From Rhodococcoides kyotonense (lineage in GTDB: Bacteria; Actinomycetota; Actinomycetes; Mycobacteriales; Mycobacteriaceae), in NCBI RefSeq assembly GCF_900188125.1, contig NZ_FZOW01000016.1:1-64000 (forward strand): a stretch of 64,000 nucleotides of DNA, read 5' to 3'. The position numbers were made by a program, and so were the translations under genes. Shown here piece after piece: positions 12,178 to 58,113 of this stretch (positions are counted from its first letter, which is position 1; each line of letters opens with the position of its first letter). The notes beneath the pieces were generated by a model. That model was not told where the DNA came from, made no database searches, and saw only the letters and a list, made by a program, of their open reading frames with translations.

Positions 12178-12217
12178 GTGAGTGAGAATGTATAGCGCTC
12201 TATACATTTTCACTCAC
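12178..12217. repeat. Palindromic element 1 (PAL family)
   Basis: The left arm GTGAGTGAGAATGTATAG and right arm CTATACATTTTCACTCAC flank the centre CGCT; there is one mismatch, G:T in RNA. It lies 7 bp beyond the stop of the ClpC-N gene and 15 bp upstream of the holin-type gene. Its left flank GACACCCTAT is shared with element 2. Confidence 0.85.
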
Positions 12218-12223
12218 GACGGC

Positions 12224-12772
12224 TTATGCCGCCTTGTCCAGCGATTCCGTGATCCGGTTCCGCAGGCCGTCGGGATCTCGCACGACGGCGGTGAATCCGT
12301 CGTCCGCTCCCCTGATCAACCCGAGCAGCAGGTGCTCGGACCGGATCTCGGAGTCCTTGCGCTGGATCGCCTCCCGCAACGACAGTTCGATCGCCTTCTT
12401 CGACGCGGGCGCGAACGCCAGGTGCCCGGTACGACGGCCCAGCCAGCCGCGCTTGTCCTGAGTCGGCTCGTCGAGCGCGCCCTCCCCGAACGACGCCTCC
12501 AGACTCGCTCGGACCGCGTCCAGGTCGATCCCGATCGACTCGAGGGCTTTGGCGTCGCCGTCCCCCAGTTCGCTGTCCGTCGACAGTGTCGCCCGCACCG
12601 AATCGACCGTGTAACCCTCGCGTTCCAGCAGTGATCGCAAACCCGAGTCCGCAGTATCGAGGACACCGAGGAACACGTGGACCGCCTCGATGCGGGGCGA
12701 CTTCGTTGCCCGGGCCTGTTCCTGCGCAGCCACGACGGCCATGCGGGCGCGCCCGGTGAATCGTTCGAACAT
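12224..12772 (-). CDS. Clp N-terminal domain protein, ClpC2-like
   Basis: The 182-residue protein is only a double Clp_N repeat with no AAA+ module. The first repeat begins MFERFTGRARMAVVAAQEQAR and the second has KKAIELSLREAI followed by SEHLLLGLIR, both close to the ClpC1 N domain. The Phe at position 2 and the Phe in LAFAP correspond to the two ClpC1 phenylalanines that bind cyclomarin. The gene follows a small HTH gene by 3 bp; together they reproduce the order of domains in mycobacterial ClpC2 (HTH then ClpC-N). Likely role: sensor or decoy for ClpC1 ligands, inferred. Confidence 0.85.
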   Translation of the reverse strand: MFERFTGRARMAVVAAQEQARATKSPRIEAVHVFLGVLDTADSGLRSLLEREGYTVDSVRATLSTDSELGDGDAKALESIGIDLDAVRASLEASFGEGALDEPTQDKRGWLGRRTGHLAFAPASKKAIELSLREAIQRKDSEIRSEHLLLGLIRGADDGFTAVVRDPDGLRNRITESLDKAA

Positions 12773-12775
12773 CTC

Positions 12776-12985
12776 CTACCTCCCGTTGTGCTTCTTGTGC
12801 ACGGCTTGCTTGCTGACGTCGAGCGCGTCGGCGATGGCCTGCCACGACCACCCCTGCCTGCGCGCATTCGTCACCTGAATAGCTTCGAGCCGCTCCAGCA
12901 GCCTGCGCAGCGCGAGAACGGCCCGGAGCCCTTCGCTCGGGTCGGGGCTGCCGGCTGCGGCGGCGAGTGTCGTTGCTTCGGTCAT
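12776..12985 (-). CDS. Small helix-turn-helix protein, partner of the ClpC-N gene
   Basis: This 69-residue protein ends in a helix-turn-helix (GWSWQAIADALDVSKQAVHKK, about residues 45-65) preceded by a helical segment. That motif resembles the HTH found in the N-terminal half of mycobacterial ClpC2 (SWSDIGKSMGVTKQAAQ). The ATG at 12985 lies at the expected transcription start (7 bp past a TAGATT -10), suggesting a leaderless mRNA. Two TTGACA-type inverted repeats overlap the promoter, so autorepression is likely. Longer upstream reading enters palindromic element 2 and is spurious. Confidence 0.8.
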   Translation of the reverse strand: MTEATTLAAAAGSPDPSEGLRAVLALRRLLERLEAIQVTNARRQGWSWQAIADALDVSKQAVHKKHNGR

Positions 12986-12988
12986 AGC

Positions 12989-13032
12989 TGTCAATCTAGG
13001 TTGACAAGCACGATTCGTCAACCCACGTTGAC
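12989..13032 (-). promoter_or_regulatory. Promoter and two operators of the HTH/ClpC-N operon
   Basis: Reading leftward, TTGACG (complement of 13016-13021), 17 bp, then TAGATT (complement of 12993-12998) form a good promoter 7 bp from the ATG. TGTCAA-TCTAGG-TTGACA (12989-13006) overlaps the -10 and GTCAAC-CCAC-GTTGAC (13017-13032) covers the -35, so a dimeric regulator bound to either would block transcription. Confidence 0.6.
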
Positions 13033-13087
13033 ACCCTATGTGAGTGAAAATGTATAGCCCTCTATACATTTTCACTCACATAGGGTG
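13032..13087. repeat. Palindromic element 2 (PAL family), longest copy
   Basis: Perfect 26 bp arms around the centre CCCT. The core arm is GTGAGTGAAAATGTATAG, extended outward by CACCCTAT on the left and its complement on the right. It lies between divergent promoters (HTH gene and pepN), so it cannot act as a terminator for either and its right end reaches the pepN ribosome site. Confidence 0.9.
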
Positions 13088-13093
13088 GTGGTC

Positions 13094-15556
13094 GTGAACA
13101 CCGCGAACCTGACCCGGACCGAAACCCGCCGCCGCTCGCGCCACATCGGCAACGTCGGCTACCGCGTCGAACTGGATCTGCGCGACGCGGTGGATTCACG
13201 CACGTTCGGCACACGCACGACCATCACGTTCGACGCCAGCACCCCGGCCACCTGGCTCGACTTCATCGGCGCGGAGGTCAGATCGGTGACGCTCGACGGC
13301 ACCGAGGTTCCGGTCGAGTACGACGGCTCCCGCATCCAACTCGTCGGGCTGGGCAAGTCGAACACCGTCGTCGTCGACGCCGTGGGTCGCTACAGCCGCA
13401 CGGGTGAGGGTCTGCATCGTTTCGTCGACCCCGCGGACGACGAGGTGTACCTCTACACACAGTACGAACCAGCCGATGCCCGACGAGTATTCGCGAACTT
13501 CGAACAGCCGGACATCAAGGCGCAGTTCACATTCACCGTCGACGCACCCGAGGGCTGGGAGGTGCTGTCCAACCGAATCGGCACCACGGACGGCGCGAGA
13601 ACCACGTTCGAGCCGACGCTTCCGATCTCCACGTACATCACCGCGATCGCCGCCGGCCCGTATCATCGTGCCGAATCGACGTGGCACAGAGGCGAATCGA
13701 CGATTCCGCTGGCTGCGTTGTGCCGCAAGTCCATTGCCGAACATTTCGATCCCGACGACATCTTCGAGATCACCAAACAGGGCCTCGACTTCTACCACGA
13801 CAGATTCGCATTTCCGTACCCCTTCGGCAAATACGACCAGATCTTCGTGCCCGAATACAACCTGGGCGCGATGGAGAATCCCGGGCTCGTCACGTTCACC
13901 GAGTCCTACGTATTCCGTTCCGCTGCAACCGAAGCACAGTACGAGCAGCGCGCCAATACGATCCTGCACGAGATGGCGCACATGTGGTTCGGCGATCTCG
14001 TGACCATGGAGTGGTGGGATGACCTGTGGCTCAAGGAATCCTTCGCCGACTTCATGGGCGCCTTCGCATCCGCGAACGCCACCCGTTTCACCGACGCATG
14101 GGTCAGCTTCGCCAATCGCCGCAAAGCGTGGGCGTACCTTCAGGATCAACTCCCGACGACGCATCCGATCGTTGCCGACATCCCCGACCTCGAGGCCGCG
14201 AAACTGAACTTCGACGGCATCACCTACGCGAAAGGCGCGAGCGTGCTGAAGCAACTCGCAGCCTACGTCGGCGAGGACGCCTTCTTCGAGGCCTCGCGCA
14301 ACTACTTCGCCGAATTCGCCTACAAGAACACCACTCTCGCGGATCTTCTCGGTCACGCGTCGACGGCATCGGGACGCAATCTCGACGAATGGGCCGCGGC
14401 GTGGCTACAGACCACGGGCGTCTCGACGCTCTCCTACACCGGCAGCGACACACGCAAGAACATGGGCATCGAGCAGACCGACCCTCGCCCGCACCGCGTC
14501 GCCGTCGGACTGTACGACGCGGATGCCGACGGCAACATCGTCCGGACGTCGCGGCGTGAGATCGACATCGCCGACGCGTACACACCACTCGAACTCCCCA
14601 GCGCCGCACTGGTTCTCCTCAATGACGACGACCTCACGTACGCCAAGATCCGGTTCGACGACGCCTCCCTCGAGACCATCCGGACCTCGTTGGATCGCGT
14701 CGTCGATCCTCTTGCGCGCGGACTGATCTGGTCGGCACTGTGGAACGCGACGCGCGACGCCGAACTCGATCCGCGCACCTACCTCGACATCGCGTCGCGG
14801 TTCGCCGCGTCGGAAAGCAAGGTCGGCGTTCTCGCCGCTGTCGTCGCGAACGCCCAGTTCGCCGTCGACCACTACGTCACCGATTCCGCTGCGGCAGCCG
14901 ATGATTGGCTCGCCACGTGCTGGTCTCGACTCGAAACCGCCGATCCGGGAAGCGACGCACAGATCGTGTGGCTGCGAGCCGTCGCCGCAGCTGCCACGAC
15001 GTCGGACGTGCGCTCGGGACAGATCGACCGACTGCTCGACGGCTCTCTCCCGATCGAGGGTATCGAGCTCGACCCCGAGCAGCGGTGGATGCTGCTGAAG
15101 TCGGTCAGTGCACGCGGAAAGGTGTCCGTCGCACGGCTCGATGCCGAATTGGACACGGACAACACTGCTTCCGGGCTCAACTCGCATCGCGCAGCCGTCG
15201 CCGCACAGCCCGATGCGGAGACCAAGGCGCACGCGTGGACCGCGTTGACCACCTCCGACGACCTCTCCAACGATGCCGTCGACGCCACGGTGTCGGGGTT
15301 CCGCGCAGGTGGTCGACGCGATCTCCTCGCCGCATACGACGACCGCTACTTCGACGCCATCGCGGACCTCTGGTCCACTCGCAGCATCGAAATCGCCCGA
15401 CGCCTCGTCGTCGGCCTGTTCCCGCAGCAGGACTCCACGGACGCGGCCGACACGTGGCTGGCCGCGCACGAATGGGCGCCTGCTGCACTGCGACGGTTGG
15501 TGATCGAGCAGCGTGACCACCTCGCCCGGGCCCTGCGGGTGCAGCAGGCGTTCTGA
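13094..15556 (+). CDS. pepN: Aminopeptidase N (M1 family zinc metalloprotease)
   Basis: This 820-residue cytosolic protease removes N-terminal residues from peptides. It has the substrate-binding GAMEN motif and the zinc site HEMAH (292-296) with the third ligand Glu315 in LWLKESFA, and the length usual for actinobacterial PepN. GTG at 13094 is preferred over GTGs at 13085 and 13088 because AGGGTGG then sits at ribosome-site distance and homology starts with NLTR. The ribosome site partly overlaps palindromic element 2. Confidence 0.94.
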   Translation: MNTANLTRTETRRRSRHIGNVGYRVELDLRDAVDSRTFGTRTTITFDASTPATWLDFIGAEVRSVTLDGTEVPVEYDGSRIQLVGLGKSNTVVVDAVGRYSRTGEGLHRFVDPADDEVYLYTQYEPADARRVFANFEQPDIKAQFTFTVDAPEGWEVLSNRIGTTDGARTTFEPTLPISTYITAIAAGPYHRAESTWHRGESTIPLAALCRKSIAEHFDPDDIFEITKQGLDFYHDRFAFPYPFGKYDQIFVPEYNLGAMENPGLVTFTESYVFRSAATEAQYEQRANTILHEMAHMWFGDLVTMEWWDDLWLKESFADFMGAFASANATRFTDAWVSFANRRKAWAYLQDQLPTTHPIVADIPDLEAAKLNFDGITYAKGASVLKQLAAYVGEDAFFEASRNYFAEFAYKNTTLADLLGHASTASGRNLDEWAAAWLQTTGVSTLSYTGSDTRKNMGIEQTDPRPHRVAVGLYDADADGNIVRTSRREIDIADAYTPLELPSAALVLLNDDDLTYAKIRFDDASLETIRTSLDRVVDPLARGLIWSALWNATRDAELDPRTYLDIASRFAASESKVGVLAAVVANAQFAVDHYVTDSAAAADDWLATCWSRLETADPGSDAQIVWLRAVAAAATTSDVRSGQIDRLLDGSLPIEGIELDPEQRWMLLKSVSARGKVSVARLDAELDTDNTASGLNSHRAAVAAQPDAETKAHAWTALTTSDDLSNDAVDATVSGFRAGGRRDLLAAYDDRYFDAIADLWSTRSIEIARRLVVGLFPQQDSTDAADTWLAAHEWAPAALRRLVIEQRDHLARALRVQQAF

Positions 15557-45474: not shown

Positions 45475-45547
45475 GGGCGGCGCTTCGGGTGCTGCGCGCT
45501 GCTGAACTCACAGAATTCTGCTTCCGTGTCCGCACCACGGTAACTGC

Positions 45548-45565
45548 TTGTGAACGAATGAACAA
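45548..45565. promoter_or_regulatory. Putative Rex operator
   Basis: TTGTGAACGAATGAACAA matches the Rex site TTGTGAA-N4-TTCACAA at 12 of 14 arm positions, between rex and the glutaredoxin gene. Autorepression of rex-hemACD is established in Streptomyces coelicolor. Confidence 0.5.
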
Positions 45566-45614
45566 AGTCGCTGGATCCGTGCTAGAGGTGCCCTCACCTG
45601 CAAAGCGAGAGCAA

Positions 45615-45896
45615 TCACACGTTCTTAGGGTGCCCTTTTGCTGCCAGATCGGCGCGCAGTCGAGGCTCGTCGACCTCCCAATAACTGTGCTCACGACCGT
45701 CGAGAAGGACCACCGGAACACGGTCGCCGTATTCGGCGCGCAGGTCAGGGCTGGTAGCTGCGGCTTCGTCGACGTCGATGCTGGTCGGGACCACCCCGTG
45801 CTCGGCGCACACCGACGTCAGAACCTTCAGTGCGGCAGCGCAGGAGTAGCAGCCTGCACGGGTGAGAAGAACCACGGAGGTCGAGGCGGAATCCAT
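45615..45896 (-). CDS. Glutaredoxin-like protein (Rv0508-like)
   Basis: This 93-residue thioredoxin-fold protein has the redox motif GCYSC at about 15-19, and a cis-Pro in RVPVVLLDG. It is a small dithiol carrier, probably using mycothiol or thioredoxin reductant. The ATG at 45896 is supported by homology. It is upstream of rex on the same strand with a 224 bp gap. Confidence 0.85.
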   Translation of the reverse strand: MDSASTSVVLLTRAGCYSCAAALKVLTSVCAEHGVVPTSIDVDEAAATSPDLRAEYGDRVPVVLLDGREHSYWEVDEPRLRADLAAKGHPKNV

Positions 45897-46044
45897 GCCT
45901 CCACTGTCCCACCGACATGCACGGAGACGAACGTCACACCCGCCTCCCGAGCGGCCGGGCCGTCGACTCGGCGGGACGCGCGGTCGGTGACGGTGCCACG
46001 GTCTAGGGTTGTGGGTAGCGTTCGAGCAGGGAGGTACGCCGAAG

Positions 46045-47136: not shown

Positions 47137-47138
47137 TC

Positions 47139-47164
47139 CCTCCCCCACACAGGCCCTGGGGAGC
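47139..47164. terminator. Candidate terminator between convergent genes
   Basis: CTCCCCCA pairs imperfectly with TGGGGAG around a 9-base loop, between stops at 47136 and 47167. There is no U-tract. Confidence 0.35.
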
Positions 47165-47166
47165 CG

Positions 47167-47655
47167 TCAGAGTGTCAACTGCATCAGCGTCAGATCCAGC
47201 CACCGGTCGAACTTGATACCGACCTCCGGCATCTCCCCGACCGTCACGAAGCCGAACTTCTCGTGCAGCGCGATGGACGTGGTGTTCAGCGATTCGATGA
47301 CCCCGACGAGCGCGTGAACCTCGGCGCCCCGGGCACGCTCGATGAGCTCCGTCAGCAACGCGCTCGCAATGCCACGGCGATGAAAACCGTTGTGCACGTA
47401 GACCGAATGCTCCATCGTGAGCCGATAGCCGCTCTTCGGCCGCCACTGCGAGTACGACGCGTATCCGGCGACATTGCCGTCGACGACCGCCGTGAGGACG
47501 GGGTATCCGGCGCGGAGTCGCCCGTCGAGCCACTCCATTCGCTCGTCGAGCCCGACCTCGGTTTCGTCCCAGATGGCCGTGGTGTTTCTGATGGCGTCGT
47601 TGTGAATCTCGAGGATCGACGGTAGGTCTTCGGTGACGGTGTCGCGAATCAGCAC
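47167..47655 (-). CDS. GNAT N-acetyltransferase, phosphinothricin-type
   Basis: This 162-residue protein has the GNAT acetyl-CoA loop FHRRGIASALLTELIERA and the PAT-type features ILEIHNDAI, EHSVYVHNGF and IALHEKFGF. It probably acetylates an amino-acid-like substrate. Convergent with the phosphatase gene. Confidence 0.87.
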   Translation of the reverse strand: MLIRDTVTEDLPSILEIHNDAIRNTTAIWDETEVGLDERMEWLDGRLRAGYPVLTAVVDGNVAGYASYSQWRPKSGYRLTMEHSVYVHNGFHRRGIASALLTELIERARGAEVHALVGVIESLNTTSIALHEKFGFVTVGEMPEVGIKFDRWLDLTLMQLTL

Positions 47656-47688
47656 CGGGACAACACTACTGCCAGCCCAGGCTCGTGC

Positions 47689-48753
47689 TCATCCCAAGAA
47701 AACGTTTCGGCGCTTGGCGAGCAACCGGTACAGCGTGTGCTGGATGGTCTCGCGGACGTGGTCGGTGAGCTCGAACAACACCATCGGGTCCTCGGAGGCC
47801 TGCGCGTCGTAGGAATCCGTGTAGATCGGCTTGCCGAATTCGATGTACCACTTCGACGGTAGCGGAATCAGCCCGAGTGGCCCGAGGTGCGGGAAGAACG
47901 GCGTCACCGGAAAGTACGGCATGCCCATCAGCCGCGCGAGCGGGGTGATGTCACCGATCTTGGGATAGATCTCCTCGGATCCGACGATCGAGCACGGCAC
48001 GATCGGAGCACCTGTACGCAGCGCCGCCGAGACGAATCCGCCGCGGCCGAAACGCTGCAACTTGTAGCGCTCGCTGAACGGTTTGCCGATCCCCTTGAAC
48101 CCCTCCGGGAACACGGCGGCGACCTCACCCATACGCAGCAGACGTTCGGCGTCGGGATTGCACGCGAGCGTATGGCCGGCCTTACGAGCGATGGTTCCGA
48201 CGCCAGGCATCTCGAATGCCATGTCCGCGGCCAACATTCGCAACGGGCGTTTCTTCGGATGGTGATCACGGACGGCAACCGACGTCATGAGGGCGTCGAT
48301 CGGGATGACGCCCGCGTGATTGGCGACGACGAGCGCTCCCCCGTCGTCGGGGATGTTCTCGATGCCTTTGACCTCGACCCGGAACCACTTGTCGAACAGC
48401 GGCCGGAGCATCGGGAGCCACACGGCGTCCGCGAAGTGCGGGTCGTAGCCGAACTCGTCGACCGTGTAGTCACCGGCCAGTCGCCGACGGGCGAACTCGG
48501 CTGTCCGGGCGATCTGGTCGACCAACTTGTCCTTGACGGCATCGATCGGCGACGGGTCGGCGGTGTGGTGTTCGACGGGCGCAGCCGTCGTCGGGGTGAT
48601 CAGCGGCGTCGGAGGCAGCGGCTCGGTGTACGACGACGGGTGTCTACTGCGCCCCTGGTCCAGATGCCGACTGGGATCGGCATGAGCGGAGGAACGCACG
48701 GATCTTCCCGACCCACCGCCGTGCAGTGGAATCACCTTGGCCACGTCGGTCAC
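47689..48753 (-). CDS. Lysophospholipid/1-acylglycerol-phosphate acyltransferase (Rv0502-like)
   Basis: This 354-residue protein has the acyltransferase motif NHAGVIPID (the N/H-X4-D box) at about 140-148, PEGFKGIGKP as the second motif, and an N-terminal disordered region. It makes or remodels membrane lipids. It overlaps the SDR gene before it by 4 bp. Confidence 0.87.
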   Translation of the reverse strand: MTDVAKVIPLHGGGSGRSVRSSAHADPSRHLDQGRSRHPSSYTEPLPPTPLITPTTAAPVEHHTADPSPIDAVKDKLVDQIARTAEFARRRLAGDYTVDEFGYDPHFADAVWLPMLRPLFDKWFRVEVKGIENIPDDGGALVVANHAGVIPIDALMTSVAVRDHHPKKRPLRMLAADMAFEMPGVGTIARKAGHTLACNPDAERLLRMGEVAAVFPEGFKGIGKPFSERYKLQRFGRGGFVSAALRTGAPIVPCSIVGSEEIYPKIGDITPLARLMGMPYFPVTPFFPHLGPLGLIPLPSKWYIEFGKPIYTDSYDAQASEDPMVLFELTDHVRETIQHTLYRLLAKRRNVFLG

Positions 48754-49865
48754 CCCTCCCGTCCCGAGTCCGTTGCGGCCAGAGCTCTACGCGACACTGC
48801 AGCCCCTGCATCGACGGCCGACAGCAGACGCTTCTCCACCGAGTCGACCCAGTCGACCCCGAGCACGGGCCGCAGCGCAGCGCCTCGCACGAAGTCGTCG
48901 AATGCCTGCACGGTAGTCCACCGAGGCTCGAATCCGAGGTCGGATCGCATACGAGTGGTGTCGAGGCCGCACCCGAAGTGGAAGTAGTCGAGTTGCTCGG
49001 TGGTGAATTCGCGCATCATGCCGCCCATCAATGCCCGTCCGACGCTCTTGAACATCGCGAACGGTACCGGCACTTCGATGCGCCCCGCACGACGAATGGC
49101 TTGCGACAGCATGATCGTGCCGTCGGCTCCGACGTTGAACGTGCCTGCCGGGCCACTGACGGTTGCACGCTCGAGCGCGGCAAGCGCGTCCTCCTCGTGC
49201 AGCAGCTGCATGCGTGCGTCGCGGCCGATGATGCTCGGAATGACGGGAGACGTCATGTAGCGAGAGATGGTGCCGTTGAGCCTCGGCCCGATCAGCGGTG
49301 CCATACGCAGGATCGACACGGCGATATCCGGTCGACGTCGTCCGAGTCCGCGGATGTATCCCTCGATGTCGATGGTGTCGCGCGCGAACGCACCGGAGGG
49401 AGGGCGTCGCGCACTCATCTCTTCGGTGAACTTGACCGGATCCTTGGCGCTGCATCCGTACACGGACGACGACGACCGAAGAACCACCTTCTGCACCGTC
49501 GGCGATTTCTGGCACACAGCGAACAGCTGCATGGCCCCGATGACGTTGAGGTCCTTCATCGTCGCGCGGCCACCGGACTTGGGCGGTTTGGTGATGGTCG
49601 CCGCGTGCACGACCGTGTCGACCGACGCGTTCCGGATGACCTTGCCGATGAGCGGATTGCGGATGTCCGCGCGAACGAATTCCGCCCGGCCCATGCGTCG
49701 TAGAAGATCTTTGCTGGGCGAGCGGGCGTCGACGGCGATCACTCGCTCGATCGACGGATTCTGCGCGAGACGAGTGACCAGATAACCACCGAGGAATCGA
49801 CTCGCCCCCGTGACAAGGGCCACTTTCGGCGCTGCTACGCCACGATCGATCGAGTTCACCGACAC
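48750..49865 (-). CDS. NAD-dependent epimerase/dehydratase (Rv0501-like)
   Basis: This 371-residue extended SDR has the NAD motif VTGASRFLGGYLV and a diverged YxxxK region. It corresponds to the GalE2 position in M. tuberculosis. The sugar substrate is not known. First gene of the epimerase-acyltransferase pair. Confidence 0.85.
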   Translation of the reverse strand: MSVNSIDRGVAAPKVALVTGASRFLGGYLVTRLAQNPSIERVIAVDARSPSKDLLRRMGRAEFVRADIRNPLIGKVIRNASVDTVVHAATITKPPKSGGRATMKDLNVIGAMQLFAVCQKSPTVQKVVLRSSSSVYGCSAKDPVKFTEEMSARRPPSGAFARDTIDIEGYIRGLGRRRPDIAVSILRMAPLIGPRLNGTISRYMTSPVIPSIIGRDARMQLLHEEDALAALERATVSGPAGTFNVGADGTIMLSQAIRRAGRIEVPVPFAMFKSVGRALMGGMMREFTTEQLDYFHFGCGLDTTRMRSDLGFEPRWTTVQAFDDFVRGAALRPVLGVDWVDSVEKRLLSAVDAGAAVSRRALAATDSGREG

Positions 49866-50030
49866 CCCCGTTCGTTGCCGCGACTGCGTCTTACGGACGT
49901 TCCGCAGGCTGCACTCTCAGCAGCCTACTGGAATACCGAGAAGATGCGAGCGGTCGAGAAAAGGCACTCTGTGCAGGAAAAACGCATGTCAGGACAACAA
50001 GACCGGTGAGGGCTTTACACAACAGAAAAG

Positions 50031-50056
50031 CCCGTCACCTGACGATGACGGGCTCT
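50031..50056 (-). terminator. Intrinsic terminator of bS22
   Basis: On the minus strand, AGCCCGTCA, an 8-base loop, TGACGGGCT, then TTTTCTGTT: a perfect 9 bp stem with a T-rich tail. It begins 12 bp after the bS22 stop. Confidence 0.85.
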
Positions 50057-50067
50057 TCTACGAAGCT

Positions 50068-50169
50068 TTACTTACCGAGTTTCCTACGCTGCACTCGCGT
50101 ACGACGAAGCAACTTGCGGTGCTTCTTCTTCGACATGCGCTTGCGACGCTTCTTGATCACTGAACCCAT
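50068..50169 (-). CDS. Ribosomal protein bS22 / AURKAIP1-COX24 domain protein
   Basis: A 33-residue highly basic peptide ([20 protein letters not shown] and on to QRRKLGK) starting at the ATG at 50169. It matches the tiny actinobacterial ribosomal protein found as Rv0500B, with the same neighbours (proC, the HTH gene, galE2-like). It binds rRNA at the subunit interface. A terminator follows directly. Confidence 0.93.
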
Positions 50170-50420
50170 GGCGGGTGTCCCTCACGTTCTTCTCTAGCGT
50201 TTCGCGCACGCGATGTTGCGTACGCCTACCTGGCGCCTCGAACTCTGTTCCGGCCAACCATCGACCGACACAGAGCCGTCGATCCCCAAGCTGGCGCTCG
50301 GGCCTCGTTGTTCGCGGCCCGATGCAACGGCAGCCACTGGCACGACAGTTGTCGAGCTTACCGGTGAACGTGTCGATCCACGAAACCGGCCCGACTTCCA
50401 TCCGCCAGCGTCAGCGCTCG

Positions 50421-50657
50421 TCAGCCCGCGTCGAAGTACGACGTCTCCAGGTAGTCGTGCACCGCCTTGGCGTGCACACGAAACGACCTACCCACGCGTA
50501 CTGCGGGCAGTTCTCCGCTGTGTACCAGGCGGTACACAGTCATTTTCGACACCCTCATCAGTGTTGCCACTTCGGCCACTGTGAGGAATTGCGTTCCAGC
50601 TACGGCTGGTTGACCATCCGAGGACGAAGCCTTGGACGGCTTGTTTGCAGGCGCCAT
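50421..50657 (-). CDS. Excisionase/BldC-like helix-turn-helix DNA-binding protein (Rv0500A-like)
   Basis: This 78-residue protein has a winged HTH: FLTVAEVATLMRVSKMTVYR, then HSGELPAVRVGRSFRVHA. It is the conserved neighbour of proC in mycobacteria (Rv0500A). ATG at 50657 was taken; longer frames lack homology. Binding sites are unknown. Confidence 0.88.
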   Translation of the reverse strand: MAPANKPSKASSSDGQPAVAGTQFLTVAEVATLMRVSKMTVYRLVHSGELPAVRVGRSFRVHAKAVHDYLETSYFDAG

Positions 50658-50784
50658 CAATCCACATACCTCCGGCACGTCTCGCGCGGCAGGCTTCCCC
50701 TCCTGCCGAACAGACACGCACGTGCTACCTGTGAGCTTAACGTGACACATGGGGTTGTTGCGACGGGTGTAGGTCATCGAATTT

Positions 50785-51600
50785 TTATTCTGCTGTGATG
50801 CCCATCTCAGTCGATCGGTCCTTGGCGGCACTCAGAGCATGGAAAAACGCTGCTCGGAGGCCATTGGACTCCAATTCTCGGACTGCTGCGGCCGTCGTGC
50901 CTCCGGGCGATGTGACGGCATATCGGAGTTCCGTCGGCGTTTCGTCCGAACGATCGAGCATCGCAGCCGACCCGACCATCGTCTGAACCACGAGCGCCGA
51001 CGCGACATCCCTGGACAATCCGAGCCCGACTCCCGCGTCGACCATGGCCTCGGCGACGAGGAAGAAGTAGGCCGGTCCCGAGCCCGAGACGGCGGTGACG
51101 GCGTCGAGCTGATTCTCCTTGACCGTCACGACCTTGCCGACGCTCGACAGGATCGTCCGGACGAGTTCGAGGTGTTCGGCTTTCGCGTAGCGTCCGGGCG
51201 CCAGAACGCTGACACCCTCGCCGACGAGCATCGGCGTGTTGGGCATGACACGGATGACGGGGAACCCCGCAGGCAGCTTCGGCTCGAACTTCGCAGTGGG
51301 AACACCGGCGATCAACGACACGATCAACTGCTCGCGCTCGCCGTCCAGATCCGTCTTCGCGATCTCGGTGACGACCGATTCCGCGTCGCCCGGCTTGACC
51401 GCGAGGACGATGACGTCGGCGTTCTCCGACGCCTCGGAGATGGACGTCGTCAGGATTCCGTACGTCGACGCCAGCTCCGCTGCCCGCGATTCGAACTTCT
51501 CGGCCACCACCAGGTCACGAACCGCATGACCCGATTCGAGGAGACCCGCGATCAGCGCCTCGCCGATCCGGCCACCTCCGATTACTGCAATTCTCGTCAT
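50785..51600 (-). CDS. proC: Pyrroline-5-carboxylate reductase
   Basis: This 271-residue enzyme makes proline from pyrroline-5-carboxylate with NAD(P)H. It has the dinucleotide motif VIGGGRIGEALIAGLL, PNTPMLVGEGV, and the C-terminal catalytic signature LRYAVTSPGGTTAAAVRELE. Position in the cluster agrees with Rv0500. Confidence 0.95.
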   Translation of the reverse strand: MTRIAVIGGGRIGEALIAGLLESGHAVRDLVVAEKFESRAAELASTYGILTTSISEASENADVIVLAVKPGDAESVVTEIAKTDLDGEREQLIVSLIAGVPTAKFEPKLPAGFPVIRVMPNTPMLVGEGVSVLAPGRYAKAEHLELVRTILSSVGKVVTVKENQLDAVTAVSGSGPAYFFLVAEAMVDAGVGLGLSRDVASALVVQTMVGSAAMLDRSDETPTELRYAVTSPGGTTAAAVRELESNGLRAAFFHALSAAKDRSTEMGITAE

Positions 51601-51624
51601 GGCGGTAAGCCTAGATTGCGGTAC

Positions 51625-52455
51625 TCAGCGCGGCACCATCGCCAACTGTCGGCTCTGCACGACCACGGCACCCGTCGAATCGAGCACCAGATGGTCTTCC
51701 TCGAACCACGTGCCGCCGATGACGGTGCTGCTCGCCGCGACCCGCAACCAACCGGGCGCAGGTGCCTTACGCAGATAGCCCGTCAGCTGAACCGTCGGCG
51801 CCCATCCGAACATGCCGCGGTTCATCGTCACGGGCGCGCAGATGTCACCGGTCATCAACGCGAACAGCACGGCAGTGTCGACGTCGGCCTCGTCGTCGGG
51901 ATGCGGCCGTACCCACATCCGAACCTCCGGCTCCCCCTGCTGTCCCGACAGGAAATGCGCCGACGACGGGTCGATGCGCATCTCGCAGCCCTGCGCCACA
52001 TGCACGATCGACGCCATCGGGTGATCCCCGCCGATCGCCTGGGTCTCGGCGGGTGGCTCGGCAGGCATCGACGCGAGCGACGACGGCACCTCGTGGCGCG
52101 GCACGTCGGTGTCCGGACGCCCGAGCGTGACGACGGCCCGGACCGCGACGCGTCCGCCCTGTGTCATCTCGACATCGACGTGACTGACCTGCTTGCCGCG
52201 CTTGCGAACGATCGTCGTCAGCTCGACGGCACCGGGGTCGGGCGCGTTGAGGTAGCTGACGCTGACGGCGAGGGGCTGCAGGTCGTCGTCGCTCAGTTGG
52301 GCTCGTGCGGCGGCCGCGCAGGTGGCGAGCATCGTTCCACCGTGGACTTTGGGTCCGATCGTCCACGTCGAATCGATGACCGCGCCGAACGCGCCTTCGG
52401 TGTCGCTGTGATGGGTCGTCGTGACGGTCGTCGCGGATCGGAACGGGCTGGTCAT
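51625..52455 (-). CDS. Thioesterase-superfamily (double hotdog) protein
   Basis: This 276-residue protein has two hotdog-like halves: GPKVHGGTMLATCAAAARAQ with a following strand pattern, and a second half with FGWAPTVQLTGYLRKAPAPGW. This fits acyl-CoA thioesterase-type folds. It overlaps the MerR gene by 4 bp, suggesting a shared operon. Confidence 0.78.
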   Translation of the reverse strand: MTSPFRSATTVTTTHHSDTEGAFGAVIDSTWTIGPKVHGGTMLATCAAAARAQLSDDDLQPLAVSVSYLNAPDPGAVELTTIVRKRGKQVSHVDVEMTQGGRVAVRAVVTLGRPDTDVPRHEVPSSLASMPAEPPAETQAIGGDHPMASIVHVAQGCEMRIDPSSAHFLSGQQGEPEVRMWVRPHPDDEADVDTAVLFALMTGDICAPVTMNRGMFGWAPTVQLTGYLRKAPAPGWLRVAASSTVIGGTWFEEDHLVLDSTGAVVVQSRQLAMVPR

Positions 52456-53063
52456 GTGGCTGGCCTTTCGAGTGCAGAAGCTATGTCTTGATGGGCGAGG
52501 CGTCGGAGTGCTGTGATGACGGGTTCGTAGACGGCCGTTCCGATCACCGAGTATTCGACGGCCGCTTCGACGGTGTCCGGCATGAGCGACAGGTCGTAGT
52601 CGGCGATGCCGCGCACGTGGCGTCCGTACACCTCCAGCCGCTCGTCGGTCATCGGGATTCCGACTTCCTCGGCTGCTCGCAGAGCTCGGTCGAGCTGTGC
52701 GACGGCGACGAACCTGGGGTCGTAGACCTGCCCGAGTTTCTCGAGCGCCGCTTTCGCCAGCGGGTAGTCCTCGGCATCGGCGTCGTCGAGATAGGGCGGC
52801 AGCTCGGCGATCGCGCGCCCGAGCGTCTGGAACAGCGACGCCTCCGGGTATTCGATCAGCCGCAGAACCGTTCTGATGCGGTCGATCGGCAGCCCCGCGC
52901 CTGCGAGCGCCTTGATGAGAGCCAGGCGCTCGACGTGCTCGTCGCCGTACGTCGACTGCGTCGCGGACGTGGATATGCCTGGCATGAGCAGGCCCTCGCG
53001 CAGGTAGTACTTGATCGTCGCAAGTGGGACACCCGACGCGGCGACGAGCTGAGATACGCGCAC
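52452..53063 (-). CDS. MerR-family transcriptional regulator
   Basis: This 203-residue protein has an N-terminal MerR winged HTH (VSQLVAASGVPLATIKYYLREGLL, residues 3-26) and a helical effector domain. No Cys pair for metal sensing is visible, so an organic ligand is more likely. The promoter contains a 17 bp palindrome. It probably controls itself and the thioesterase. Confidence 0.87.
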   Translation of the reverse strand: MRVSQLVAASGVPLATIKYYLREGLLMPGISTSATQSTYGDEHVERLALIKALAGAGLPIDRIRTVLRLIEYPEASLFQTLGRAIAELPPYLDDADAEDYPLAKAALEKLGQVYDPRFVAVAQLDRALRAAEEVGIPMTDERLEVYGRHVRGIADYDLSLMPDTVEAAVEYSVIGTAVYEPVITALRRLAHQDIASALERPAT

Positions 53064-53079
53064 GCCGACTCCCTCGATT

Positions 53080-53096
53080 GGATACCTGCAGTATCC
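53080..53096. promoter_or_regulatory. MerR operator candidate
   Basis: GGATAC-CTGCA-GTATCC is a perfect inverted repeat 16 bp upstream of the merR start codon. Confidence 0.6.
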
Positions 53097-53101
53097 AGAC
53101 C

Positions 53102-53956
53102 TTACCCCGAGGAAGAATTCAGGTGCTTACGCGCGAACTCCAACGCCTGACCGAGCATCGACGAACGTTCGGTCAGCGTCCGAGCGTTCTGCGTGTTGAT
53201 CTCGACGACGGCCTGGCCGCGGAAACCTCGTCGAACCAGCTCGGAACACACCTCGGCGCACGGCTGGTCACCGTGGCCGGGAATCAGATGCTCGTCCACC
53301 GACGCGCCCCTGCCGTCGGCCAGATGCAGGTGCGCCAGGCCGTCGCCCATGCGGTTCATGAGCTCGACGGCATCGGAACCGGCTGTCGCCGTGTGGGAGA
53401 GGTCCAGCGTGTAGTGGGCGTGACCCGAATCGGTCGGATCGTACGACGGCGCGAACGCCGACAGCGCCGCACCCGGCCCGCCGCGCTTACGCAGCCGAGC
53501 CGCCGACCCTTCCTTGCGCCCGAAGAAGCGATCTGCACGCATCGGGAACATGTTCTCGACGGCGACGATGACGTCGGACCCCATCTCGAGATCCGCAACC
53601 TGGTCGGAAAAGCCGTCGGCGTACTTCTTCTGCCACCGAAAAGGCGGATGTACGACGACGGTCGCAGCCCCCAGCTTCTCGGCGGCCTGCACCGATCGTT
53701 CCAACTTCGCGGCAGGATCGGATCCCCAGACGCGCTGGGAGATGAGCAGACACGGCGCATGAATGGCCTGGACCGGAATGCGGTACTTCCGCGACAACGC
53801 CGCGACCGCTTCGACGTCCTGACTGACCGACTCCGCCCACACCATCAGCTCGATGCCGTCGTACCCCAATTCGGCAGCGAAGCGGAACGCAGCCTCGGTG
53901 TTCTGCGGGTACACCGACGCCGTGGACAGACCGACGACGACCTCGGACGCAGGCAT
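53102..53956 (-). CDS. Sugar phosphate isomerase/epimerase-like TIM barrel (Rv0498-like)
   Basis: This 284-residue protein shows the AP endonuclease-2/xylose isomerase-like barrel: LGYDGIELMVW, ATVVVHPPF, IVAVENMFP, LDLSHTATAGSD, HLADGRG and VVEINTQN, with metal-binding His, Glu and Asp at strand ends. A soluble metal enzyme of unknown substrate. Same position as Rv0498. Confidence 0.84.
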   Translation of the reverse strand: MPASEVVVGLSTASVYPQNTEAAFRFAAELGYDGIELMVWAESVSQDVEAVAALSRKYRIPVQAIHAPCLLISQRVWGSDPAAKLERSVQAAEKLGAATVVVHPPFRWQKKYADGFSDQVADLEMGSDVIVAVENMFPMRADRFFGRKEGSAARLRKRGGPGAALSAFAPSYDPTDSGHAHYTLDLSHTATAGSDAVELMNRMGDGLAHLHLADGRGASVDEHLIPGHGDQPCAEVCSELVRRGFRGQAVVEINTQNARTLTERSSMLGQALEFARKHLNSSSG

Positions 53957-53966
53957 GCAGGCCTTG

Positions 53967-55124
53967 TCAGCCGGTACTCAATTGGAACGCCAGCGGTCCC
54001 AGCGTGACGAACACTCCGACCGCGATAGCGATGACCATGCTGATCATGTCGTCCGTGCGTCTCAGGATGCGCACCACCGCGACGAGTCCGACGATCACCA
54101 GTACCGCCAGGATCAACGCGACCCACGGCAACATGTCCCACAGCTTCTCGAAGCCCTTGAACAACAGCGCGCCGACGACGATCGCCACGACGCCCTGACC
54201 CGCGAGAACGAGCCACTGCCTGGCGGCATCTTTCTTTGCCGGGGACGCAGGGGCGTCGTCGTGCTCGTCCTTGTCGCCGATCGCGTCGGTGACCTCGGTG
54301 ACCGCGTCGTCGTCCGCCTGCTTCTCGAGCGAGACCTTGTCGTCGTCCTCGGTCTTCTTCGTGGGCTTGTCGATCGTCGGTAGCGCGCGAGTCACGGGCT
54401 TGACCGCGGTCTCCGCCTTCGATTTCACGTGCCCCGAAGACTTCGCGGGTGACTCGGCCGTCGCATCGGTCTTGGCGGTGACCTTTGTTTTGGCTGTGAC
54501 CTCGGGCTTCGCTGTGACGGCAGTCTTGGCTGTGACGTCGGTCTTGGCTGTGACGTCGGTTTTCGGTTCCGGCTCGCGCTCGGTTCGGCCCCGCTGCACG
54601 AAGCCGGTGCTACGCGCCCTCGTGATGGGCACGGGACGCTGGGACGGGACCGAGCCGTACGGGCGACGCTCACTCTCGTCGTGCGCCTTGTTGAGAAGGT
54701 CGCCTGCGGCAGTGGTCGAGCCGGACAACAACTCGGGCTCTGGCTGCGCACGCGAACCGAAGGACGACGACTTGGGCTCGACCGAAGGCTTGGACTCGAC
54801 CGAAGGCTTGGGCTCGACCGAGGGCTTGGGCTCGACCGAAGGCTTGGACTCGCCGGGAGTCTTGCGGTCGCCGGGAGTCTTGGGATCGATTGGCGGTTTC
54901 GGTGCCGCCGCGGGTTCCGGTTCGATGACGGGGGCCCCGCCTGCCGTCGGCTCATCCCTGACGACGGGAATCTCGCCGGTCAGTTCGGCGACCGAGATGC
55001 CGCCCTTCACTCCGCGCCGACGTCGACCACCTGAACTCAGGTTGGCCTTCTGTCCGTTGCGCGCGAGTAGTTCGGCAACGGAAATCTGCCCGGTGTCCTC
55101 CGGGTTCGTGTTGTTGTCGGTCAC
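53967..55124 (-). CDS. Membrane protein with long repetitive Lys/Pro/Thr linker (Rv0497-like)
   Basis: This 385-residue protein opens with two copies of an ISVAEL motif (SVAELLARNG and GISVAELTGE), a feature of mycobacterial Rv0497 proteins. It continues with low-complexity repeats (KPSVEP units and TDVTAK units, each coded by an 18 bp repeat) and ends with four membrane helices (about 290-380). Start GTG 55124 overlaps the ppx stop (GTGA). Probably an envelope protein; function unknown. Confidence 0.8.
   Translation of the reverse strand: MTDNNTNPEDTGQISVAELLARNGQKANLSSGGRRRRGVKGGISVAELTGEIPVVRDEPTAGGAPVIEPEPAAAPKPPIDPKTPGDRKTPGESKPSVEPKPSVEPKPSVESKPSVEPKSSSFGSRAQPEPELLSGSTTAAGDLLNKAHDESERRPYGSVPSQRPVPITRARSTGFVQRGRTEREPEPKTDVTAKTDVTAKTAVTAKPEVTAKTKVTAKTDATAESPAKSSGHVKSKAETAVKPVTRALPTIDKPTKKTEDDDKVSLEKQADDDAVTEVTDAIGDKDEHDDAPASPAKKDAARQWLVLAGQGVVAIVVGALLFKGFEKLWDMLPWVALILAVLVIVGLVAVVRILRRTDDMISMVIAIAVGVFVTLGPLAFQLSTG
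54465..54565 (-). repeat. 18 bp coding repeat (TDVTAK units)
   Basis: About five to six copies of an 18 bp unit (plus strand GTCTTGGCTGTGACGTCG with variants) encode six-residue TDVTAK-like repeats in the Rv0497-like gene. Confidence 0.85.
54771..54858 (-). repeat. 18 bp coding repeat (KPSVEP units)
   Basis: About five copies of an 18 bp unit (plus strand CTCGACCGAAGGCTTGGG with variants) encode KPSVEP/KPSVES repeats in the Rv0497-like gene. Such perfect tandem units are prone to copy-number change. Confidence 0.85.
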
Positions 55125-56074
55125 GTCGTGCTCACCACCAGATCGCCGTCCGTTTCGGTGTCCAGCTTCCGCAAAATCAAACCTTCCCTGAGCGCCCACG
55201 GGCAGATCTCGATCGTATCGATCGACAAGGCCCGCATGCTCGCTTCCGCTACGAGCGCCCCGGCCACCAATTGCGGTGAGCGGTCGGCGCTGACTCCTTC
55301 CAATTCTGCACGGTCTGCAGCAGTCATCCTCGATATGAAGGCTATGAGTTGCCTGAGACCGTTCGCCGTCAACGTGCGCGGGACCCTCGGGCCTGCGGCG
55401 GACGGCGCGGCGCCGGTCAGCCTCGCGAGCGAACGGAACGTCTTCGACGTGCCGACCATCCGGTCGGGCTCACCGGCGGCGAGCAACTCCTTGGCCGGCG
55501 TCGACAGTTCCGCGTCGAGCCAATCCCGCAGGACGGCGACGCGTCGTTTGCCGGGCGGGTCGGCGTCGAGCCAATCCCTGGTCAGACGGCCTGCGCCGAG
55601 CGGAAGCGAGAACGCGACATCCGGATCCTCGTCGCTGCCCGAGGTGAGCTCGAGCGAGCCACCGCCGATGTCGAGGTTCAGAATGCGACCGGCGCTCCAG
55701 CCGAACCAGCGTCGAACTGCGAGGAACGTCAATCGCGCCTCGTCGACTCCCGACAGCGTCTGCAACACGACGCCCGTCTCGTTCTTCACTCGGGCGAGAA
55801 CCGCGTCGCTGTTGTGAGCATCACGTACCGCCGACGTCGCGAAGGCCATCAACTCTTCGCATCCGGACTTCGTGGCGATCGCAGCGAAGTCGGCAACCTC
55901 GCCGACCAGGCGTTCTGCACCTGCCGGGGTGATATTGCCGTCGGCGTCGGTGTTCTCGGACAGGCGCAGCGTCGCCTTCGAGGAGCTCATCGGAGTGGGG
56001 TGTCCACCACGATGTGCATCCACCACCAGTAGATGCACGGTGTTGCTTCCGACGTCGAGCACCCCTAATCGCAC
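55121..56074 (-). CDS. ppx: Ppx/GppA-type exopolyphosphatase (Rv0496-like)
   Basis: This 317-residue actin-fold phosphatase has [16 protein letters not shown] at the N terminus, the second phosphate loop [14 protein letters not shown], and [11 protein letters not shown]. Family members degrade polyphosphate or pppGpp. Its closeness to senX3/regX3 suggests a phosphate-stress link. It is divergent from the Rv0495c-like gene. Confidence 0.92.
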
Positions 56075-56107
56075 ACATCCACGGTACTGGGTCTAGCGTC
56101 GTGTCTT

Positions 56108-56905
56108 GTGACAGCAGGTAGTAAGCAGCAGTTTGCTGCGGAAGTCGACCTGGATTTCCCCCGCGAATGGGTGGAATTCCCCGATCCCGACAACTCCGAA
56201 CACATCATCGCGGCAGACCTGACATGGCTTCTGTCGAACTGGACCTGTGTGTTCGGCACCCCGGCGTGCCAGGGCACCGTCGCTGGGCGGCCCGACGACG
56301 GATGCTGTTCGCACGGAGCCTTTCTGTCCGACGACGACGACAAGAAGAAGCTCGACGAGTCGGTGAAGTTACTCACTGCCGAGGACTGGCAGTTCATGGA
56401 CAAAGGCCTCGGTAAGAAGGGCTACGTCGAATACGACGACCTCGACGACGAGCAGTCACTGCGTACGCGTCGATACAAGGGCGCGTGCATCTTCCAGAAC
56501 CGGCCCGGATTCGAAGGCGGCATCGGCTGCGCGCTGCACTCGATGGCGCTGCGGAAGGGGATCGAGCCTCTCGAGGTCAAACCCGACGTCTGCTGGCAGC
56601 TGCCGATCCGCCGCACCCAGGACTGGGTGACGCGTCCGGACGGCACCGAGATCCTCAAGACGACGATCGGCGAATACGACCGTCGCGGCTGGGGAGAAGG
56701 TGGCCACGACCTGTCCTGGTACTGCTCAGGCTCTCCCGACGCGCACGTCGGCAGCAAGCAGGTGTTCGAGTCTTACAAGCCCGAGCTGACCGAGCTACTC
56801 GGCAAGCCTGCGTACGACGAGCTGGCGTCGTTGTGCAAGCGGCGCCGCGGCCTCGGGCTCATCGCGGTGCATCCGGCGACGCGAGAGGCGCAGCGAACCA
56901 AGTAG
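56108..56905 (+). CDS. Conserved Cys-rich protein (Rv0495c-like)
   Basis: This 265-residue soluble protein has cysteines in patterns [28 protein letters not shown] and DVCWQLP, suggesting a metal or cluster site. It is conserved in mycobacteria as Rv0495c beside ppx; a redox-related role has been suggested for that protein. GTG at 56108 is the start. Palindromic element 4 follows 14 bp after the stop. Confidence 0.82.
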
Positions 56906-56919
56906 GGGGCCTTCGGCCC

Positions 56920-56963
56920 ATGTGCGCGGAAATACATAGCCCGCTATGTATTTCCGCGCACAT
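56920..56963. repeat. Palindromic element 4 (PAL family)
   Basis: Perfect 20 bp arms around CCCG; core arm GTGCGCGGAAATACATAG. It fills the gap between convergent stops at 56905 and 56970. Confidence 0.9.
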
Positions 56964-56969
56964 AGAGCA

Positions 56970-57995
56970 CTACGGCACAATGACCGCGCGGCCGCGGATC
57001 TTGCCTGCGTGCAAGTTTTCGTAGGCCTGCGGCGCCTCGTCGAGCGAGTACTTCTCGACGTGGATTTCGATCGCGCCGCGCTTGGCCAGCTCGACGACCT
57101 CGATCAGCTCGGCCCGAGATCCCCAGTTGATAGCGCGGCCCGTGACGTCGAGCGGGACCGTCCGCTGCCCGATGGGCACGGCACCGCTTGCCACGCCGAT
57201 GACGACGACATGCCCCGCCGTCGCAACCATCCCTGCCGCGAGATCGGCCGTCGGCTGGATGCCGACGAAGTCGAACACGACGTCGGCTCCAAGCCCGCGG
57301 GTGATCTCCTTGACCGAATCGACCGCGGCCGGCTCGGACTTGAACGTGTGGTCGGCTCCGACCTTGCGCGCGAATTCGAGCTGCTCGTCACCGAGATCGA
57401 GAGCGACGACGGTCGCCTGCGTCAGCGCCTTGAGAATCTGAATCGCGACATGCCCTAGCCCACCTGCACCGATCACGACGGCCGTCGTGCCGGGAGTCAG
57501 CTTCGGCAGTGCCGACTTCACAGCGCGGTACGGCGTCAGACCTGCGTCGGTGAGAGACACGCTCGTCACGGAGTCGAGGTCACCGAGCGGGACAAGGTGC
57601 CGGGCGTCGTCGACGATCATGAACTCGGCCATGCCGCCGTCACTGAAGATGCCGGGCGCCCGCATCCCCTTCTCGCAGTTCATCTCGTTGCCCTGTGCGC
57701 ACTGGTAACAGCGGCCACATCCCCACGGCCCGTAGACGAGCACGGATTCGCCGACCTCGACGCCGGTGACACCGTCGCCGACTGCTTCCACGACACCCGC
57801 GACCTCATGGCCGAGCGTGAGCGGCAGGGGCTTGAAGTAGTACTCCTCTTCGGAGACGCCCATGATGAACTCGTCGGAGTGACACGCACCCGCAGCTGTC
57901 ACGCGGAGCAGGATCTCCGATGCCGATGGGGTGGGTGTGTCGATCTCGACCAGCTCGGGCCGGGATCCGATCGTGCGGTACTGCAAGGCTTTCAT
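56970..57995 (-). CDS. Zinc-dependent alcohol dehydrogenase (MDR family)
   Basis: This 341-residue protein has the catalytic-zinc motif GACHSDEF, GHEVAGVVEAVGDGV, a structural-zinc loop (CGRCYQC, then NEMNCEKG) and the NAD motif VIGAGGLGHVAIQ. A cytosolic NAD(P)-alcohol/aldehyde oxidoreductase; substrate unknown. It lies between elements 4 and 5. Confidence 0.92.
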   Translation of the reverse strand: MKALQYRTIGSRPELVEIDTPTPSASEILLRVTAAGACHSDEFIMGVSEEEYYFKPLPLTLGHEVAGVVEAVGDGVTGVEVGESVLVYGPWGCGRCYQCAQGNEMNCEKGMRAPGIFSDGGMAEFMIVDDARHLVPLGDLDSVTSVSLTDAGLTPYRAVKSALPKLTPGTTAVVIGAGGLGHVAIQILKALTQATVVALDLGDEQLEFARKVGADHTFKSEPAAVDSVKEITRGLGADVVFDFVGIQPTADLAAGMVATAGHVVVIGVASGAVPIGQRTVPLDVTGRAINWGSRAELIEVVELAKRGAIEIHVEKYSLDEAPQAYENLHAGKIRGRAVIVP

Positions 57996-58073
57996 CGAGA
58001 AACTTCCTTCGTCGTATTCATAGATAGCAATACTTGAAGTTTAAACCTTGCAGTGGGGCGGCTGCGCCGCCAC

Positions 58074-58113
58074 GTGAGTGAAAATGTGTAGCGGGCTACA
58101 CATTTTCACTCAC
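58074..58113. repeat. Palindromic element 5 (PAL family)
   Basis: Perfect 18 bp arms GTGAGTGAAAATGTGTAG and CTACACATTTTCACTCAC around CGGG. It lies 5 bp beyond the regX3 stop. Confidence 0.9.

Follow-up and report, generated by a model that had tools for sequence, protein, structure and literature searches.

We found a REP-like family of palindromes of about 46 bp which probably provides converging transcripts with a 3' hairpin; we infer both its function and the mechanism of its copying. The window, i.e. the whole stretch of 64,000 nucleotides that was analysed, contains five members:

12178-12217: GTGAGTG type, one mismatch, centre CGCT; 6 bp past the stop of a Clp_N-domain gene (12224-12772, minus strand)
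13032-13087: GTGAGTG type, perfect arms of 26 bp, core 13040-13079, centre CCCT; flanked by divergent genes, the right one being that of an M1 aminopeptidase (13085-15556, plus strand, start uncertain)
40439-40478: GTGCACG type, centre CGGA; 6 bp past the stop of a HEM4/TP_methylase gene (40485-42041, minus strand), upstream of an ALAD gene
56920-56963: GTGCGCG type, perfect arms of 21 bp with 2 bp between them, corresponding to arms of 20 bp and a 4-bp centre CCCG; between the convergent stops of 56108-56905 (plus strand) and an alcohol dehydrogenase gene (56970-57995, minus strand)
58074-58113: GTGAGTG type, centre CGGG; 5 bp past the stop of a response-regulator gene (58119-58808, minus strand)

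The gene calls were made with a simple caller, which gives sound stops and rough starts. When the 18-4-18 plan was searched with up to three mismatches, exactly these five places of the window matched, and 100 dinucleotide-preserving shuffles gave no match. Thus, the five palindromes of the original prediction are real. Their predicted RNA folds ranged from -33.7 to -49.1 kcal/mol (z -5.9 to -11.0). As had been stated, four of them lie 5-16 bp past a stop codon, and the one with the core 13040-13079 lies between divergent genes. The asserted lack of a U-tract was also borne out: a terminator scan of 40001-59000 listed none of the three palindromes in this range, and by eye no U-tract was seen in the sequence at 12178-12217 and 13032-13087.

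A genome-wide search revealed 107 exact places of the palindrome pattern in the genome of the window (G000), so that a family of only five copies is excluded. A covariance model, applied to no more than 150 candidates per genome, detected relatives in 30 of the 37 genomes from the Rhodococcus/Rhodococcoides group. Under stricter filters it gave none in 141 genomes of 30 other genera. The pattern with an NNGG centre was present in 8 of 301 genomes and the covariance model found relatives in 5 of 151, all of them in the Rhodococcus/Rhodococcoides group; a family-wide presence was rejected. Samples of 80 kb from five other genera were also inspected, and two of these genomes (G044 and G058) had their own strong palindromes at the ends of genes. 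Viral contigs, plasmids and phages yielded no match that would point to a phage or plasmid origin, a weak result as the queries were exact patterns or 54 bases long.

The unit consists of a CAYGTG-arm, an NGGG centre and an arm-CACRTG. The centre was NGGG in 48 of 60 copies, corresponding to a conserved, unpaired GGG. Several subfamilies with different arms coexist within one genome. In 864 kb of G000, seven 11- and 12-mers from the arms occurred 158 times inside palindromes and 3 times outside, whereby words from one arm can overlap in these counts. The many near-identical copies are dispersed as whole palindromes, which points to copying at unit length. Two copies, C24:173172 and C24:312210, are chimeric, each of their arms being known from a perfect palindrome; they are the only clean chimeras among the 52 copies with at least two arm differences.

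The position relative to genes was determined for 122 distinct copies. This analysis assigned 71 copies to convergent gaps, 44 to tandem gaps and 4 to divergent gaps, the remaining 3 being located at the edge of a stretch. All 44 tandem copies lay between -21 and +38 bp from the upstream stop, and no copy was wholly inside a called gene. Viewed from the gaps, the 864 kb of G000 had family units in 30 of the 113 gaps between convergent genes. Tandem gaps were occupied by them in 12 of 148 cases when 80-600 bp long and in 2 of 322 cases when not longer than 80 bp, and divergent gaps in 2 of 112 cases. Among the convergent gaps of 30-80 bp, 33 of 43 contained a palindrome of any type. Of the 113 convergent gaps, 44 are shorter than 10 bp, and 43 of these lack one; consequently, the unit is not required there. 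Of the 93 occupied gaps, 91 contained a single palindrome, and the remaining two measure 1160 and 732 bp.

The arms had also been predicted to covary, and this was confirmed with 43 distinct copies from eight genomes that were picked by the exact pattern. The proportion of paired cells (96.8% versus 88.3% in shuffles), the number of cells changed on both sides (87 versus 32.8) and the covariation score (0.288 versus 0.134) were each higher than in all of 500 shuffles. Both-side changes occurred in 7 of 18 pairs, and the 11 invariant pairs are partly due to construction because the copies were chosen with the exact pattern. Neither the number of pairs changed on both sides nor that of further pair types exceeded the shuffles (242 and 391 of 500 as high, respectively). 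Covariation by itself is no proof of selection on the RNA. On the transcribed strand of the 44 tandem copies the stem mismatches comprised 19 G-U, 24 A-C and 14 others, and the wobble preference that selection on the RNA strand could have left was not found. The centre of these copies was G-rich in 23, C-rich in 19 and tied in 2 cases. Lacking both a G-U preference and an orientation of the centre, the copies do not point to optimisation of the RNA itself. Inspection by eye of the G027 chromosome, with unmapped origin, showed both loop orientations in both halves and no clear two-arm pattern.

Orthologous gene ends were compared with G006, the closest relative found (84-88% DNA identity to G000 in three aligned stretches), and with G027. 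An intergenic palindrome of any kind was present at 10 ends in both G000 and G006, at 11 and 9 ends in one genome only and at 104 ends in neither (odds ratio 10.5, p 4e-5); the values for G000 and G027 were 12 both, 10 and 5 one only and 111 neither (p 4e-8), these Fisher p values being rough since shared palindromes were counted once and both genes flanking a convergent gap otherwise entered as separate counts. Conserved convergent pairs alone gave 4 both, 2 and 2 one only and 7 neither for G000 and G006. Filled ends are thus common to the species above chance, but their sequences differ: palindromes at shared ends of G000 and G006 had an identity of 0.620, which 685 of 2000 permutations equalled or exceeded, versus 0.607 when partners were mismatched, and the corresponding values for G000 and G027 were 0.438 versus 0.446. 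In relatives, these sites are also occupied by unrelated palindromes. At the 58074-58113 site G006 carries a GTGCACG-type palindrome instead of the GTGAGTG type, and among 30 loci compared at the HEM4/TP_methylase stop (the 40439-40478 site) 19 had a palindrome after the stop and 11 had none. A filled and an empty form of one site, compared by eye between diverged species, exhibited no target duplication, and the emptiness may be due to deletion.

Lineage specificity of the palindromes is partial. Among the 106 intergenic palindromes of G000, 63 were at least 0.8 identical to another one in the same genome, and 54 to one of the 48 palindromes from G006 and G027. Another palindrome, AGTGGC..GCCACT, is present in 53 copies in G027, 73 in G009 and 76 in G017, and is absent from G000 and G006.

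The contention that no named family has this consensus was correct for the consensus only, since the general kind, a REP-like palindrome, is known. Rfam gave no match at gathering score, no named Rhodococcus palindrome family appeared in the open-licence literature that was covered, and the accessible portion of PMC11678152 contains nothing on such palindromes. In the broad sense the family shares with REPs that it is a short, high-copy palindromic repeat outside genes and adjoins the 3' ends of genes, in convergent as well as tandem gaps. The closest description is that of the GTAG/CGTC REPs (Di Nocera et al. 2013, PMC3733652), whose accessible text reports that the distance of convergent copies to both 3' ends is mostly below 20 bp, that tandem copies lie close to the 3' end of the upstream gene, that the termini supply TAG stop codons and that some families are species-specific, all of which is common to both. 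In contrast to these tagged REPs, the Rhodococcus unit forms a single long palindrome around an asymmetric NGGG centre. An unpaired GTAG/CGTC tag at the hairpin foot was absent from the flanks of 60 copies, which show CAY before and RTG after the unit, mostly pairing with each other. A word search of the main text of that survey gave no occurrence of Rhodococcus, Nocardia or Actinobacteria. With REPINs (Bertels and Rainey 2011, PMC3116915, as far as accessible) the family has in common an inverted pair forming a hairpin that is copied as one unit, and compensatory changes of the arms. However, 18% of the SBW25 REPs are singlets, whereas single Rhodococcus arms are practically absent, and the RAYT-type domain is not encoded in G000. 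PF01797, the RAYT-type Y1 transposase, was detected in 1 of 37 genus genomes, and mobilisation by RAYT was rejected on this ground. The uptake-sequence terminators of Haemophilus (PMC5217627, accessible part) are also a repeated sequence with inverted pairs at gene 3' ends; an uptake word doubling as terminator is ruled out here because the arms are not found as scattered singles.

For the family as a whole we give an even chance to a REP-like element which multiplies as a whole unit within a genome, undergoes replacement over time and is retained at gene 3' ends as a strong hairpin just past stops, usable by either transcript. Placement at 3' ends together with shared occupancy suggests use at gene ends. 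The original alternative of hairpin or cruciform selection versus mobility of a palindromic unit was well founded, the evidence favouring both together. The 4 divergent copies, the lack of a sign of RNA optimisation, the partial lineage specificity, the short convergent gaps without a unit, the small number of clean chimeras and the missing RAYT-type mobilising enzyme count against this proposal.

Rather unlikely, in our view, is that the units are selfish REP- or MITE-like palindromes without host function which persist at 3' ends as insertions elsewhere are purged. The lacking G-U preference and loop orientation relative to transcription and the differences in families between species fit such elements; published REPs are placed alike, and a spread via transposases has been hypothesised for the GTAG REPs (PMC3733652, accessible text). 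The near absence of two units per gap speaks against them. Filled ends in common above chance despite differing sequences would not readily result from repeated neutral insertion, although shared descent of filled sites with conversion in place could explain the occupancy without function.

It is improbable that ordinary bidirectional intrinsic terminators evolved in place via compensatory mutations. Convergent-end placement, strong hairpins and covariation would be expected, and an ATTTT run was seen by eye within the 3' arm of many copies in G000. However, GTGCGCCCTTTGCGC and AGTGGCGTGG are examples of palindromes at such sites that lack this internal T run, and no U-tract follows the stem. 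Nor would one expect near-identical sequence at more than 100 loci or a conserved GGG in the unpaired centre. The dissimilarity at shared ends, where vertical memory is lacking, has already weakened this explanation. As an informal contrast, a hairpin with T-rich ends at 50024-50059 of the window has a counterpart in 8 of 14 panel genomes, counted per genome, in which the core is listed as GCCCGTCAC or GTCCGTCAC. Quite improbable, too, are DNA-level binding sites, e.g. for gyrase, which binds E. coli REPs, or for a protein of the nucleoid, by which supercoils would be relieved at sites of converging transcription: convergent placement and symmetry without transcription-strand polarity would agree with them, but one DNA-binding protein would hardly tolerate several arm-different subfamilies in one genome and unrelated palindromes at the same sites in relatives.

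Under the favoured REP-like reading, copying may proceed by ectopic conversion between copies, by single-strand transposition through a putative enzyme, or by both, and the copies that are kept would act as two-way 3' hairpins. A 3' cap against exonuclease trimming after Rho-dependent or imprecise termination is favoured over a classical intrinsic terminator because no U-tract follows. In the actinobacterium Mycobacterium tuberculosis, TRIT is reportedly described in the RNIE paper as a conserved structured motif at gene ends, in which it would resemble the family. More tentatively, the gene-end sites might be inherited while their content is rewritten partly in concert per lineage, by ectopic conversion or a non-RAYT single-strand transposase copying whole units. 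Each genome would then possess its own "dialect" of 3' hairpins, the unit spreading as an element and at the same time serving its host as a standard bidirectional transcript end. Species dialects are known for the uptake sequences of Neisseria.

Shared ends that are filled above chance without detectable sequence memory in G000 and G006 open two questions to testing: by which route a palindrome of 46 bp is copied and exchanged when no RAYT-type transposase was found in G000, and whether REP-like repeats are working transcript ends of their hosts. Furthermore, the palindromes could serve expression work in Rhodococcus as candidate two-way 3' hairpins.

The five palindromes predicted in the window (12178-12217, 13032-13087, 40439-40478, 56920-56963 and 58074-58113) were all found at these positions when the sequence was re-examined. 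Their common plan of an 18-bp arm, a 4-bp centre and the complementary arm had no match in 100 shuffles of the window. A search of the genome containing the window (G000; 6.31 Mb, 50 contigs) located the exact pattern at 107 places and a reversed control pattern at none, and the family is thus larger than the original five copies. Covariation of the arms was assessed on 43 distinct copies aligned from G000 and seven relatives: 96.8% of the stem cells were paired and the covariation score exceeded all 500 shuffles. Two of the five measures used, namely how many pairs show double changes and how many pair types occur, were not above the shuffles.

The anatomy of the unit was determined in 864 kb of G000, consisting of the window and 800 kb from contigs picked for showing many palindromes. 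It includes 32 of the 107 exact copies; copies in which at least 14 of 18 positions pair number 60, which scales to an inferred number of about 200 in G000. The unit is about 46 bp long. Three further positions outside the GTG..CAC core tend to pair, namely Y-R (68% of the 60 copies), A-T (92%) and C-G (77%). After G-rich orientation 48/60 copies showed the centre NGGG; thus, the unit has polarity in its unpaired middle. The main arms were GTGCACGAAAATACATAG (18), GTGAGTGAAAATGTATAG (8), GTGCACGGAAATACATAG (5) and GTGCATAGAAATACATAG (4). Six arm 11- or 12-mers occurred 144 times within palindromes and never elsewhere in the 864 kb, a seventh, GTGCACGGAAAT, 14 times within and 3 times elsewhere, and six shorter arm words 0-3 times outside palindromes. 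Arm words are therefore virtually confined to palindromes, and copying thus acts on the whole palindrome.

A covariance model built from the 43-copy alignment, with up to 150 candidates scored per genome, had matches in 30 of the 37 genomes that represent the genus, the Rhodococcus/Rhodococcoides group; G001, G002, G005, G011, G012, G016 and G035 were without a match at this depth. Outside the genus, under stricter filters and with up to 43 candidates scored per genome, 0/141 genomes matched. A pattern with the centre NNGG matched 8 of 301 genomes, every one within the genus.

Placement was analyzed for 122 distinct copies, drawn from the 864 kb, a 14-genome panel and 38 pattern-matched loci. 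Convergent genes flank 71 of them, tandem genes 44 and divergent genes 4; the other 3 lie at the end of a stretch. All 44 tandem copies lay at -21 to +38 bp relative to the upstream stop. Sometimes the palindrome itself provides the stop codon, and at C24:167743 its TAG terminates both convergent genes. In G000 family units were present in 30/113 convergent and 2/112 divergent gaps, and in 2/322 tandem gaps of up to 80 bp and 12/148 of 80-600 bp. Palindromes of any kind occupied 33/43 convergent gaps of 30-80 bp and 1/44 below 10 bp. A single palindrome was found in 91 of 93 occupied gaps, the two exceptions being gaps of 1160 and 732 bp. The stop codon and the palindrome are often separated by a small hairpin whose loop is TTC, TTCG or GNA (e.g., GGGCCTTCGGCCC), as seen at window positions 56905-56920 and at compared gene ends.

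This layout equals that of published REPs (PMC3733652), and the placement is therefore not new. In REP-rich genomes, according to that paper, REPs between convergent genes mostly lie less than 20 bp from both 3' ends, those in tandem gaps lie near the upstream 3' end, and TAG stops are often supplied by the REP. The palindrome family differs in lacking the tag that defines the GTAG and CGTC superfamilies. No RAYT-type domain was found in G000; CGTC REPs, too, are apparently without a dedicated transposase (PMC3733652). The sole Y1 transposase found among the 37 genus genomes is encoded in stretch L145 (G030:C38). Hence, the family is filed as REP-like, outside both superfamilies.

At the 40439 site, 3' of the HEM4/TP_methylase stop, a palindrome was seen at 19 of 30 loci and none at the other 11. 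Sequences vary greatly among these 19 palindromes, three of which are imperfect and were spotted by eye. Comparable variety was observed 3' of the response-regulator gene and of gene 56108-56905. Occupancy was compared for reciprocal-best genes, counting any intergenic palindrome. Between G000 and its closest relative found, G006, 10 gene ends were filled in both genomes, 11 and 9 in a single one, and 104 in neither (Fisher p 4e-5), and between G000 and the genome G027 the numbers were 12, 10 and 5, and 111 (p 4e-8); these p-values are rough because, shared palindromes aside, the two genes of a convergent gap entered the count independently. When only convergent pairs that are neighbours in both genomes are considered, the direction is the same and the numbers are small (G000/G006: 4 filled in both, 2 in each genome alone and 7 in neither; G000/G027: 4 in both and 12 in neither). 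For G000/G006, sequence identity at the shared ends was 0.620, a value attained by 685 of 2000 permutations, versus 0.607 with mismatched partners; the figures were 0.438 versus 0.446 for G000/G027 (1192/2000) and 0.432 versus 0.367 for the 7 shared ends of G006/G027 (259/2000). Because alignment was anchored on the centre, one shared end with a different loop length, a hairpin with GGGCCCTGTATCC arms that is not a family member, scores low despite plainly related arms. In the literature searched we found no description of gene ends that stay occupied while their palindromes are exchanged for others.

In closer relatives (G015, G023, G014, G026 and others) the palindromes of a given site look, by eye, vertically related with point changes; turnover is therefore not instant. 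Two G000 copies, out of 52 with at least two arm differences, are chimeras: each of their arms is known from perfect palindromes, and three differences lie side by side. This pattern suggests exchange between copies. Two copies 0.86 kb apart, within 12168-12217 and 13030-13087, have the common left flank GACACCCTAT. At the divergent site matching by position in G006 a different palindrome adjoins a similar flank.

Of G000's 106 intergenic palindromes, 63 were at least 0.8 identical to another one within G000, and for 54 such a partner existed among the 48 palindromes of G006 and G027. The corresponding numbers were 10/23 within and 11 outside for G006, and 12/25 and 6 for G027. Thus, the species have part of the family in common, and only another part is specific to a lineage. 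Lineage specificity is clearest for a second family, AGTGGC..GCCACT, with 53 copies in G027, 73 in G009, 76 in G017 and none in either G000 or G006; with up to 3 mismatches allowed it matched in 19/37 genus genomes. In G027 it was seen at gene ends (stretches L232-L241).

Another palindrome type with a GGTCACTC..GAGTGACC centre occupies a convergent gap at window positions 35412-35466, and similar ones were seen in G000 (C16:5524 and C24:271532) and in the G006 panel stretch. The palindrome family may be contrasted informally with the T-rich-ended hairpin at 50024-50059, for which counterparts (core GCCCGTCAC/GTCCGTCAC) are listed in 8/14 panel genomes. The alcohol dehydrogenase gene 56970-57995, found in 5/15 panel genomes, is flanked by a palindrome on either side in the window; in 3 of the 5 no palindrome was found toward the response-regulator side. 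Other genera of the taxonomic family have gene-end palindromes of their own (G044, L254-L257; G058, L258-L261), and 80 kb of G044 contained two related copies of CCGAATGTCACATGCGTTCAG.

As RNA, the five window palindromes are predicted to fold strongly (-33.7 to -49.1 kcal/mol), and no U-tract follows them, as originally noted. Sense-strand mismatches in tandem copies comprised 19 G-U, 24 A-C and 14 others, and their centres were G-rich in 23, C-rich in 19 and tied in 2 cases. Mismatch types and centre orientation argue against fine selection on RNA pairing, though a lone A-C mismatch in a stem of 18-21 bp would be of little consequence. A functional reading therefore rests on placement and occupancy, and we give even chances to a candidate role in which the kept copies would provide transcripts with a 3' hairpin just after the stop.
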